Shown here piece by piece: positions 7,106 to 29,370 of a DNA stretch of 64,000 nucleotides. Position 1 is the stretch's first letter, and each line of letters begins with the position of its first letter. The notes beneath the pieces are model-generated. The model was given only the letters and a program-made list of their open reading frames with translations, was not told where the DNA came from and did no database searches. Position numbers and translations under genes: made by a program. The stretch comes from Roseiflexus sp. RS-1 (GTDB taxonomy: Bacteria; Chloroflexota; Chloroflexia; Chloroflexales; Roseiflexaceae): contig NC_009523.1 in the NCBI RefSeq assembly GCF_000016665.1, positions 3,533,501 through 3,597,500 on the forward strand, read 5' to 3'.

Positions 7106-8110
7106 ATGATTGATGATGCGTTCGTGTTCGACGGTGTGTGCCACGTCTTCAACTTCGATAAGTCCAATGCGTTCGGCAAGCCGGGGGAGATGTTCATCGA
7201 GCATCTGTACGCCTTTCATCAGGTGCTCAACGCTCCCGGCGAGAAGACTCTCACCCGTGAAGAGTACATGCGCGAATGGACGGCGGATGAAATCGCGCGC
7301 ATGGTTTTCGACGAAAGCCCCACCGACATGATCATTGCGCAGCCGTTGCCGCTGACCGATCTGTTCAAGGACGGGCTTTCGAGTTGGGAAAAGTGCGCGG
7401 CGATGGCGCGCAAATATCCCGATCGGACGATCTTCTGGGGATCGATCAACCCGCTCGAAGGAAAGAAGGCGCTCGATCTGATGGAGATTCAGGTCAAGGA
7501 GTACGGCGCCCGTGGGTTCAAACTCTACAATGTGCGCTATGACTACGGTCAGCCGTTCCCGTGGCGCATGGACGATCCACGGGTGGCGTTTCCGGTCTTC
7601 GAGAAGGCGCTCGAACTGGGTGTCAACATCATTGGAGTCCACAAAGGCGTTCCGCTGGGACCGCAACCGGTTGAACACACCCAGGCGTGGGACATGGACG
7701 GCGCAGCTGCCAGGTTCCCGGAGATCAATTTCGTTATCTTCCACGTCGGATTACCGTTCATCGATGAGATCTGCTGGCAGTTGGTGCGCTATCCGAACCT
7801 CTACGCTTCGATTGCGGCGACAGTCAACTTTGTTGTGCGCTCACCGCGCGTCTTTGCCGAGACCATGGCAAAACTGCTCTTCTGGTGCGGCGAAGATAAA
7901 ATCATCTACGGCGGAGAGACGCCGATCTGGCATCCGCGCGGCGCGCTGAAAGCGTTCTGGGAGTTTGAACTGCCGGACGACATCGTGCAGGGGTATGGAT
8001 GCGGGCAGTTGACGAAGGAGGCGAAGAAGAAGATCCTCGGACTGAATCTGGCACGTCTCCACGGGATCGATGTCGAGGAGAAGAAACGCAGCCTGGGGCT
8101 GGCAGCGTAG
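7106..8110 (+). CDS. Amidohydrolase-2 family TIM-barrel hydrolase/decarboxylase
   Basis: A 334-residue protein. The start at 7106 is set by GAGGAGGA at 7093-7100; the open frame continues upstream into the DUF59 gene and is not used. Amidohydrolase-2 (ACMSD-like) features: N-terminal strand FVFDGVCHVFNF, barrel strand RGFKLYNVRYDY, IIGVHKG, FVIFHVGLP and a C-terminal YGGETPIWHP. The usual N-terminal HxH is HVF, with only one histidine, and the usual GSD near the C-terminus is GGET, so the metal site is changed. It may be metal-independent or use other ligands. The substrate is unknown. Confidence 0.8.
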   Translation: MIDDAFVFDGVCHVFNFDKSNAFGKPGEMFIEHLYAFHQVLNAPGEKTLTREEYMREWTADEIARMVFDESPTDMIIAQPLPLTDLFKDGLSSWEKCAAMARKYPDRTIFWGSINPLEGKKALDLMEIQVKEYGARGFKLYNVRYDYGQPFPWRMDDPRVAFPVFEKALELGVNIIGVHKGVPLGPQPVEHTQAWDMDGAAARFPEINFVIFHVGLPFIDEICWQLVRYPNLYASIAATVNFVVRSPRVFAETMAKLLFWCGEDKIIYGGETPIWHPRGALKAFWEFELPDDIVQGYGCGQLTKEAKKKILGLNLARLHGIDVEEKKRSLGLAA

Positions 8111-8153: not shown

Positions 8154-8181
8154 TTGACATCACGCCAGAATCCACTACAAT
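8154..8181 (+). promoter_or_regulatory. Strong sigma-70 promoter of a structured leader RNA
   Basis: TTGACA (8154-8159), 16-bp spacer, TACAAT (8176-8181). Start of transcription is expected near 8188, immediately before a perfect hairpin. One of the best promoters in the window. Confidence 0.8.
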
Positions 8182-8187
8182 ACGTTC

Positions 8188-8482
8188 CTGGCGCCTGTGC
8201 GCCATAGGTGTTCGTGCTCTCCGGCAAAAATCCGCGCAAGGATGCAGCGTGATTTTTGGAGCGCCATCAGAGAACGGTTCATCTTCGCATGAACGGATGG
8301 TCCCGGTAGAGCGTTCAGGAAGAGTGTATGGACGGTAAAGCCAACTTATCCTGCCGCGACCTGTCGCGCCCGGAGTCGATGCACTCCCCGGCGTGCGGGT
8401 GTGCGCCTGCCGTTCGAGATAGTCTCCTCTGACGAACCTCTGTTGCATGCGCCCCCGCACGTCGAATGTGCGGGGGTTTTTT
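8188..8482 (+). ncRNA. Structured non-coding RNA or riboswitch-like leader, class unknown
   Basis: About 295 nt between a strong promoter and a perfect terminator, with no plausible reading frame. Predicted stems: TGGCGC/GCGCCA (8189-8194/8199-8204, 4-nt loop); AAAAATC/GATTTTT (8226-8232/8251-8257); GTTCAT/ATGAAC (8279-8284/8291-8296, CTTCGC loop); GGAGT/ACTCC (8372-8376/8383-8387); GTTCG/CGAAC (8412-8416/8432-8436). CGTGCGGG at 8392-8399 is perfectly complementary to CCCGCACG in the left arm of the terminator, so an antiterminator is possible. The decarboxylase gene starts 98 nt after the terminator. It could be a riboswitch or attenuator for that gene, or an independent small RNA. I do not see T-box, cobalamin, TPP, SAM or glycine consensus. 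Confidence 0.6.
8452..8482 (+). terminator. Intrinsic terminator of the leader RNA
   Basis: CCCCCGCAC (8452-8460) pairs with GTGCGGGGG (8468-8476) around a 7-nt loop and is followed by TTTTTT (8477-8482). Textbook Rho-independent terminator placed before the decarboxylase gene. Confidence 0.9.
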
Positions 8483-8580
8483 GTGTCCCCTTGTCTGCCG
8501 GGTGAGTCTGGTCGCATGTTCTGGACTCGTTTTGCTGGCGCTTCTGCCAGCCTCGTGCAGATGAAGGAGGTTCACTCCAA

Positions 8581-10149
8581 TTGAATGGGCAGCCCTACGT
8601 CACCGCGTTCACCGACCGTTATGGCGTCGGCCCTGAAGGACAGATCAACGATTTCATCAGCCGTCGTGGCGACCGATTGCTTCTGGCGGATCAGATAGAC
8701 CTCAATGCGATGGTGGCGCGCTACGGCGCGCCGCTAGAGGTCGCGTATTGCCCGCAGATCACGCTTCAGATCGAGCGGATGCTGGCATGGGCGGACGACG
8801 CGCGCATGCGGAGCGGGTATGTCGGCGGTTTTATCTATGCGTATGCGACGAAAGCCAACTTTGCCGAAGAGGTTGTGCGCACTGCCATCGGCGCTGGCGC
8901 CCACTACGAAACCTCCGCAGCCGCCGATGTGACTATCGCGCATCGCCTGTGGCAGCAGGGAGTGTTGCCGTCGGATCGATACATCTTCTGCAACGGCTCG
9001 AAGGACGATGCCTACCTGGCTGCGATCAGTGCGTTGCGTCGTGCTGGCTTCGCGCGTGTTGTGCCGGTCATCGATGACCTGGACGAACTGGAGACACTGC
9101 TGGCGATGTGCCGCGAACCGTTGCTGCTCGGTGTACGGGAGCGCCACGCGCCTGCCGATGTCGATGCAGATCATCCCGGTGGTGAACGGTTTGGCTTGAC
9201 GCCGGACGAGATTGAGCAGGTTGTGGAACGACTGCGCCATACGCCGCACCGCCTGGTGATGTACCACGCAATGGTTGGGAGTCAGATCGAGGATGCCGAT
9301 CGCTGGAATATGCGGCTGGCGCGTTCGGCTGAGGCGTATGCTCGCCTGCGACAGCAGGCGCCATCGCTGATGCTGTTCAACTTTGGCGGCGGCATGCCGA
9401 CGTCCGCCTATTCGCTCGATTTTCGTTTTGACTACGTCGGTTTTCTCGAGCGCCTGATGCGCACGCTGGCGTCGACCTGCGCTGCCCATAATGTGCCGCA
9501 ACCAACCCTGGTTGGCGAGTTTGGTCGCTATACCGTTGCGTCGCACAATGTCTTCATCATGGAAGTCGGACGGGTCAAGCGTGGGCAGGGTGATGCGCCG
9601 GATTGGGTGTTAATCAACGGCAGCCTGATGGTGTCGCTGCCTGATAGCCTGATCGTGCCGGGTCAGGAGTTCATCATCCTGCCGCTGGATGGATGGGATC
9701 GTCCGGTGCGCCCGGTGCGCCTTGCCGGTCGCCTGACGTGCGACAGTGACGACTTTTTCCCGCGACCGGGAGCGCCGCCGCTGTTGCTGCCCGATCCCTA
9801 TCCTGGTCAAAAGATCGCATTCTTTGGCGTCGGCGCCTACCAGCAGATGATTGCCGGGCGGGGTGGGGCGCATCACTGCCTGACGCCGGAAATGCGACGC
9901 ATTATTATCGAACGCGACGAAGACGCACTGGTGGTGCGCGAGGTTGCGCCCCAGAACCTGGGACAGATTATGGCGCTGCTGGGGTATGCCTGTGAAACAC
10001 TGGAATTGCCGGTGCATCAACCGGTGCGTGCACCGGTGGAGCGACGGGTGGTGCGCGAGCCTTTGCGCCTGCTCCGTTCGGCGCGACGGCGGAACATGCC
10101 GCGTGGCGCGCCGCCGCCGCGTTACGGCAGTGCGGCACGGCATATGTGA
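8581..10149 (+). CDS. PLP-dependent fold-III decarboxylase (arginine/ornithine/DAP decarboxylase family)
   Basis: A 522-residue protein. No ATG or GTG suits the N-terminus; TTG at 8581 follows AAGGAGG with a 10-nt spacer. The Schiff-base lysine is Lys91 in YATKANF. Further fold-III alanine-racemase barrel features are HYETSAAADV, FCNGSKDD (as in biosynthetic arginine decarboxylase), FNFGGGMPTS (phosphate-binding glycines) and GEFGRYTVASHNV. The C-terminal beta domain carries the CDSDDFF substrate motif region. Length lies between DAP decarboxylase (about 420) and SpeA (about 630). The SpeA-like motifs make arginine decarboxylation, and so polyamine synthesis, the best guess. The structured leader just upstream may control it. 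Confidence 0.8.
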   Translation: MNGQPYVTAFTDRYGVGPEGQINDFISRRGDRLLLADQIDLNAMVARYGAPLEVAYCPQITLQIERMLAWADDARMRSGYVGGFIYAYATKANFAEEVVRTAIGAGAHYETSAAADVTIAHRLWQQGVLPSDRYIFCNGSKDDAYLAAISALRRAGFARVVPVIDDLDELETLLAMCREPLLLGVRERHAPADVDADHPGGERFGLTPDEIEQVVERLRHTPHRLVMYHAMVGSQIEDADRWNMRLARSAEAYARLRQQAPSLMLFNFGGGMPTSAYSLDFRFDYVGFLERLMRTLASTCAAHNVPQPTLVGEFGRYTVASHNVFIMEVGRVKRGQGDAPDWVLINGSLMVSLPDSLIVPGQEFIILPLDGWDRPVRPVRLAGRLTCDSDDFFPRPGAPPLLLPDPYPGQKIAFFGVGAYQQMIAGRGGAHHCLTPEMRRIIIERDEDALVVREVAPQNLGQIMALLGYACETLELPVHQPVRAPVERRVVREPLRLLRSARRRNMPRGAPPPRYGSAARHM

Positions 10150-16880: not shown

Positions 16881-17058
16881 GCCCTCGGCTATCCAGGGCA
16901 AAGCCCGCCTACGCGGGCTATGGCGGATTATTTCTTCAAAGACCATAAGCCCTCGGCTATCCAGGGCAAAGCCCGCCTGCGCGGGCTATGGCGGATTATT
17001 TCCTCAAAGACCATAAGCCCTCGGTCAGGCAGGGCGAAGCCCGCCTGCGCGGAACGCG
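16881..17058 (+). repeat. 68-bp tandem repeat, about 2.6 copies
   Basis: Units begin at 16881, 16949 and 17017 with GCCCTCGG. Each full unit has AGCCCGCC-TGCG-CGGGCT, a hairpin, followed by ATGGCGGATTATTTC and CAAAGACCATAA. A related single unit is at 29174-29265. In-frame ATGs create small ORFs beginning MADYF, which I regard as repeat artefacts. Gene-free region. Confidence 0.8.
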
Positions 17059-29097: not shown

Positions 29098-29370
29098 CAT
29101 CCGGTATGCGCCTCTTGCCGTCGGGCTGATGACGATTGAGCATTTATTCCGCTCTACCGCGCCAGCCGTGGGGCTGAAGCCCTCAGCTATGGAATGCAAA
29201 GCCCGCCTGCGCGGGCTATGGCGGATTATGTACTCAAAGACCATACGCCCTCGGCCAGGCAAGGCGAAGCCCGCCCGCGCACCCAGGCATGCGGGCGGGA
29301 CGCCTGCACACTCAGGCATGCGGGTGCGACGCCCGCGCCCTCAGGCATGCGGGTGCGACGCCCGCGCCCC
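29098..29370 (+). repeat. Mosaic dispersed repeat plus 29-bp minisatellite
   Basis: 29098-29265 is a diverged fusion of the two repeat types at 16671-17058 (ATCCGGTATGCGCC, TGCCGTCGGGCTGATG, then AAAGCCCGCCTGCGCGGGCT and CAAAGACCATA). It is followed by three tandem 29-bp units at 29284, 29313 and 29342 (CAGGCATGCGGGTGCGACGC type) and a degenerate fourth at 29371. There are no spacers, so it is not a CRISPR array. No gene is seen in 29073-29453. Confidence 0.75.

Follow-up and report, generated by a model that had tools for sequence, protein, structure and literature searches.

What kind of RNA does Roseiflexus transcribe ahead of one of its decarboxylase genes, and does that RNA control the gene? 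The stretch that raises this question, positions 8154-8482 of the window (the whole 64-kb stretch of DNA that was analysed; all features below are on the + strand), lies between an amidohydrolase gene that ends at 8110 and a 522-codon PLP decarboxylase gene that starts at 8581, in a complete genome of 5.80 Mb. The initial annotation described a consensus promoter, about 295 nt of stem-rich non-coding sequence and a perfect intrinsic terminator 98 nt from the decarboxylase, and most of this was borne out. The promoter is of the sigma-70 type (TTGACA-16-TACAAT, 8154..8181), with 11 of 12 consensus bases in the window and 10-12 of 12 in the tested relatives. From the predicted transcription start at ~8188 we obtain a 296-nt transcript that folds better than all 200 of its dinucleotide shuffles (z -3.67). 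The intrinsic terminator (8451..8482) consists of a 12-pair stem at 8451-8477 and a T tract to 8482, and the distance from the end of this tract to the TTG start at 8581 measures 98 nt. Comparing this locus with its relatives, we propose that the decarboxylase mRNA probably carries this element as its 5' leader, with the leader working as a transcription attenuator coupled to translation.

The presumed controlled gene (8581..10149, with a TTG start) encodes a protein with an Orn/Arg/DAP decarboxylase domain, whose nearest solved structures are arginine decarboxylases (SpeA, E 5e-23). In the alignment to these structures, the N-terminal part and the SLPD...TCDSD part match, and ~95 residues between them are missing. 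Since the protein scores 107 bits against TIGR01273 (biosynthetic SpeA), far below the curated cut-off of 624 bits, we call the gene SpeA-like; no protein in the rest of the genome exceeds this cut-off. Among named records, Roseiflexus MAGs come closest, with at most 96% identity in the decarboxylase. In nearly all orthologues the start codon is TTG (rarely GTG) and follows a strong GGAGG site; in the window, TTGAATGG at this start shares letters with a TGA and with an out-of-frame ATG. A small hairpin (GCTGGC-GCTTCT-GCCAGC, 8534..8551) with one compensatory change precedes the decarboxylase RBS.

The initial annotation had named two outcomes that would count against a regulatory RNA, a housekeeping RNA in Rfam and a lack of conservation in relatives, and neither came up. 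No Rfam 15 family, housekeeping RNAs included, reached its gathering score at 8154-8482, nor did any among 20 related loci, and at permissive thresholds the sub-threshold matches fell on the terminator hairpin region only. 6S RNA was rejected as the identity of the element since it is encoded elsewhere in the genome, at 3863934. We found no tRNA or tmRNA within the 64-kb window. The papers searched contained nothing relevant on this RNA from Roseiflexus or Chloroflexus, nor, for the phylum, on RNAs of this kind ahead of the decarboxylase gene. The Rfam CRISPR direct-repeat family DR28 gave three matches in the window, at 16897-16988 and 29195-29218, two places ~12 kb apart.

Comparison with relatives revealed conservation across the order Chloroflexales. 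Within the genus, DNA similarity extends over the whole element, and elsewhere in the family it is limited to parts; the decarboxylase lies 3' of the element in every such case examined, while the upstream amidohydrolase was not found adjoining it in any other genus. Of 158 class genomes, 81 encode an orthologous decarboxylase, and 61 of the 68 upstream regions that we fetched carry the same cassette, representing 31 genera in four families throughout Chloroflexales. The cassette runs from a TTGACA-16/17-TATAAT-like promoter through an early hairpin (P1) and the motif AUUCG to a long-range helix (P2), whose two strands enclose a variable interior, and on to GAGGnnnUAUGGACG, followed by more hairpins and usually the terminator. 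The seven regions without it comprise two truncated contigs, four members from other families of the class, and one region with a variant motif, ATGGACAG, which was recovered by a covariance model. This model, built from 22 sequences, matched 69 of the 158 class genomes, all in Chloroflexales; a first model, R1, from which the P2 interior had been removed, broke long members into pieces and was discarded. Matches normally occur once per genome, and each adjoins the decarboxylase or is cut by a contig end. Two genomes had two matches, on two contigs in one (G001) and split at contig ends in the other (G029); the leader copies on the separate contigs of the G001 bin share 99% and 95% identity with the window and probably represent two strains in one bin. 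Across 400 genomes spread over the phylum Chloroflexota, 38 had a match, only in Chloroflexales, under strict filters that could miss very divergent relatives. The genes downstream of the decarboxylase vary between families, as do the genes flanking the element and decarboxylase on both sides, and since a single copy per genome sits at the same gene despite these differing neighbours, the RNA travels with the decarboxylase gene.

The conserved structure comprises P1, P2 and the terminator, all of which covary. P1 (TGGCGC-CTGT-GCGCCA, 8189..8204) was identified from the fold and shows compensatory changes in relatives. P2 pairs GCTCTCCGG (8216..8224), which a conserved TTCG precedes, with CCGGTAGAGC (8303..8312), leaving one bulged T, and RNAalifold recovered its outer pairs, with compensatory changes, when no structure was supplied. 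In P1 and P2 together, 83.5% of cells are paired compared to 77.4% in shuffled alignments, and the covariation score is 0.278 compared to 0.164 for shuffles (0 of 500 as high) and at most 0.147 for slid versions, where the sequences are related and the shuffle counts are not probabilities. In the alignment, one family has its P1 out of register by a single pair, so that support for P1 is understated. In the terminator stem, four pairs are kept through changes on both sides, and a terminator-like hairpin is found in 57 of 61 regions compared to 5 of 61 after shuffling; a clear terminator is missing in the members of one genus (g3), one genome of a second (g18) and a third genus (g31). At loci of family f4, a common insertion, ACGTTTnnGGTnACGGGTTTCGCG...ACACGCAACACCGAACACGA, with ACAC/AACACG repeat-like runs, lies inside P2 and is absent from other families.

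Downstream of P2 lies a short reading frame, and here the description of the stretch as purely non-coding fails. A leader ORF of 34 codons plus TGA, MDGKANLSCRDLSRPESMHSPACGCAPAVRDSLL (8328..8432), starts in the most conserved motif, TATGGACGG, and has a Shine-Dalgarno-like AGGA at 8317..8320. The motif has the form UAUG(G/A)ACG, of which positions 1-7 were partly used in finding it (one member breaks position 7), and GAGG stands 4 nt 5' of the AUG in 23 of 31 genera. From the conserved AUG, the frame closes after 22-42 codons and before the terminator in 61 of 61 regions and 31 of 31 genera, while 2000 shuffles after codon 8 gave this closure in a mean of 8.8 and a maximum of 17 of 31, and the other two frames reach it in 5 and 7 of 31 genera. 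Six additional members found by the covariance model have leader frames of 28-34 codons. Gaps are absent from the alignment of the window's family as far as the leader stop codon and appear directly after it, and the median distance from leader stop to terminator is 29.5 nt.

The peptide itself is far less constrained. Its dN is ~0.1-0.4 compared to a dS of 0.1-0.55, the dN/dS of the decarboxylase being near 0.1, and after codon 8 the differences in the leader ORF are not concentrated at third positions. Pfam, including the SpeFL family, gave no match up to E 10 among eight leader peptides. Arg codons are not enriched in the leader, at 12.6% in frame compared to 12.8 and 10.0% in the other frames, and we rejected an amino-acid-codon attenuator, there being no such enrichment of regulatory codons. 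Since the leader peptide evolves almost freely, no amino-acid-specific stalling signal is visible. The frame is kept while the peptide is barely conserved, and therefore selection appears, from this pattern of substitution, to act on translation over that length and not on its product.

How such a leader might reach the terminator is less uniform across the order. The initial annotation proposed that CGTGCGGG (8392..8399) can pair with the left arm of the terminator as a possible on/off switch. The two are complementary, and in the window's closest relatives the pairing beats shuffles, with 8392-8399 being the best upstream partner of the terminator arm in a close relative (z -1.87). Partners at the same place in two neighbouring genera are no better than chance, and an order-wide competitor of the left arm was not found (mean z +0.19 across 26 genera), so that the candidate is limited to its genus and is not supported as a general switch. 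Within the window's family, RNAalifold instead proposes that GGACGG at the start codon (8330..8335) pairs with CCGTTC, close to where the leader ORF ends (8410..8415). This helix, P7, has 93% of cells paired in that family, far above slid versions, and shows modest covariation, its 5' side being nearly invariant. The duplex energies of P7 support it in the window's family and two other genera and not in the large family f4; over all genera tested its mean z is -0.67, with own pairs barely better than swapped ones. A further hairpin, P4 (8356..8369), lies inside the leader ORF.

These findings bear on whether the RNA senses a ligand directly. One tentative possibility, which we rate as rather unlikely, is a riboswitch class confined to Chloroflexales in which a ligand (arginine, agmatine or polyamine) would gate translation of the leader, which in turn would gate the intrinsic terminator; the aptamer core would hold the RBS and AUG, and of the leader ORF just its length, not the peptide, would matter. 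A rival reading, also unlikely in our view, is a metabolite riboswitch that senses one of these same compounds through an aptamer made of P1/P2 and the AUUCG...GAGGnnnUAUGGACG core and acts directly on the terminator, with an incidental leader frame. The element does combine a covarying aptamer-like domain (P1/P2) with a gene-control platform, the downstream terminator, its strongly conserved nucleotides adjoin the covarying long-range helix, and it is tied to one enzyme gene. However, direct control would leave unexplained both the constant closure after 22-42 codons and the alignment that stays gap-free to the stop, and no conserved competitor linking aptamer and terminator was found. If ligand binding were shown, the element would rank as a new riboswitch class.

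A different question is whether the RNA belongs to the decarboxylase mRNA at all. It could be a stand-alone sRNA, possibly with a dual function, that has its own promoter and terminator and is merely upstream of the gene. Its complete transcription unit, with a strong promoter and terminator, is consistent with this, as is the spacing of terminator and gene, which measures ~100 to 500 nt in most relatives. On the other hand, the element is present in a single copy, always directly upstream of the same gene while the neighbours change, and the gap between terminator and gene contains no promoter signal, with a mean best score of 6.4 of 12 compared to 6.6 in shuffled gaps and 10-12 for the leader promoter. 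In genus g8 (three loci), a frame of 37-39 codons with an RBS, such as MLKRWLATVTKRTVRAQTSCWLTSRHASMLVVRVRQRGV, starts ~20 nt after the T tract of the terminator, so that a transcript carrying it would need to run through the terminator. Together, the promoterless gap and this frame favor read-through and hence a leader. A stand-alone sRNA is thus less likely than a cis-acting attenuator, and we consider it improbable. Least probable of the rival readings, and very unlikely in our view, is a regulatory protein that binds the leader and controls its termination or translation, a reading in line with the conserved motifs beside a helix.

The region after the terminator has features of its own. 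As a gene shared between genera, a second post-terminator ORF is a candidate in g8 and breaks by eye in the window's genus and one other genus (g5), and we rejected it. At six loci, three of them in family f3, a stem such as CCCAGUGC/GCAUUGGG stands just after the terminator, and its 3' base runs into a GGGAGG RBS-like site; this stem is possibly a second control element.

Of the alternatives offered by the initial annotation, the cis-acting attenuator has good support from the conserved and covarying structure, the kept terminator, the single copy at the same gene and the promoterless gap. The locus holds the parts of a leader-ORF attenuator, namely a promoter, a short ORF with a start site and an intrinsic terminator before the gene. 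In the translation-coupled attenuator that we favor, transcription would start at ~8188, and the 5' domain, with P1 and the long-range P2, would present the RBS and AUG of the leader ORF. Ribosomes would translate this ORF or not, with translation ending ~20-60 nt before the terminator, and the state of translation would change how the RNA ahead of the terminator folds. This fold would decide between a stop of the polymerase at 8477-8482 and read-through into the decarboxylase. Where 8330-8335 pairs with 8410-8415, as it can in the Roseiflexus family, initiation and the folding further downstream would each depend on the other. The sequence comparison shows conservation, covariation of P1, P2 and the terminator, the kept frame and the tie to one gene; leader translation, its control over termination and the direction of that control are putative steps of the model, and the signal would be arginine, agmatine or polyamine, as deduced from the gene alone.

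The Chloroflexales element is a previously undescribed RNA family that is absent from Rfam. It adds an order-wide regulatory RNA, one member per genome, upstream of a SpeA-like gene, points to control of a SpeA-like decarboxylase of putative substrate in Chloroflexales, and provides a test case for attenuation in which the length of the leader frame, not the peptide, appears to be under selection. In attenuators of the trp/his type, a leader ORF is likewise followed by an intrinsic terminator; unlike these, the Chloroflexales leader lacks a run of regulatory codons, and no order-wide antiterminator was found. The spermidine riboswitch, a SAM-I variant, is a terminator-controlling leader RNA of polyamine genes that binds its ligand directly and, in the part of its description considered here, appears without a leader ORF (PMC10853860), whereas the Chloroflexales element has one. 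Neither the window nor the related loci gave a SAM-I-like match to Rfam.

Closer parallels come from enterobacteria. In E. coli, yqgB-speA (arginine decarboxylase) and mdtU-mdtJI (spermidine exporter, with mdtU of 34 codons) have small leader ORFs and premature 3' ends, and mdtJI termination uses Rho (PMC7815308). The Chloroflexales leader similarly joins a small ORF to a premature termination signal, but it does so in another phylum, with peptides that have no Pfam match and with an intrinsic terminator in place of the Rho of mdtJI. In Salmonella and E. coli, the orf34/SpeFL leader of speF (ornithine decarboxylase) has a 34-codon ORF whose translation controls premature termination, which is Rho-dependent, and encodes a conserved peptide (DUF2618, with an HIRR motif and two Arg codons) (PMC6386406). 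Both are long structured leaders of a polyamine-pathway-type decarboxylase with a leader ORF; in Chloroflexales, however, the terminator is intrinsic, the peptide is unconserved, and the start-codon motif beside P2 is the most conserved part. Since the SpeFL/orf34 (DUF2618) domain is absent from the eight leader peptides compared with Pfam and the terminator is intrinsic, we rejected membership in the SpeFL family. Altogether, on the best reading of these comparisons, the Chloroflexales leader would work most like the orf34/SpeFL, yqgB-speA and mdtU leaders while being unrelated in sequence to speFL/orf34-speF.
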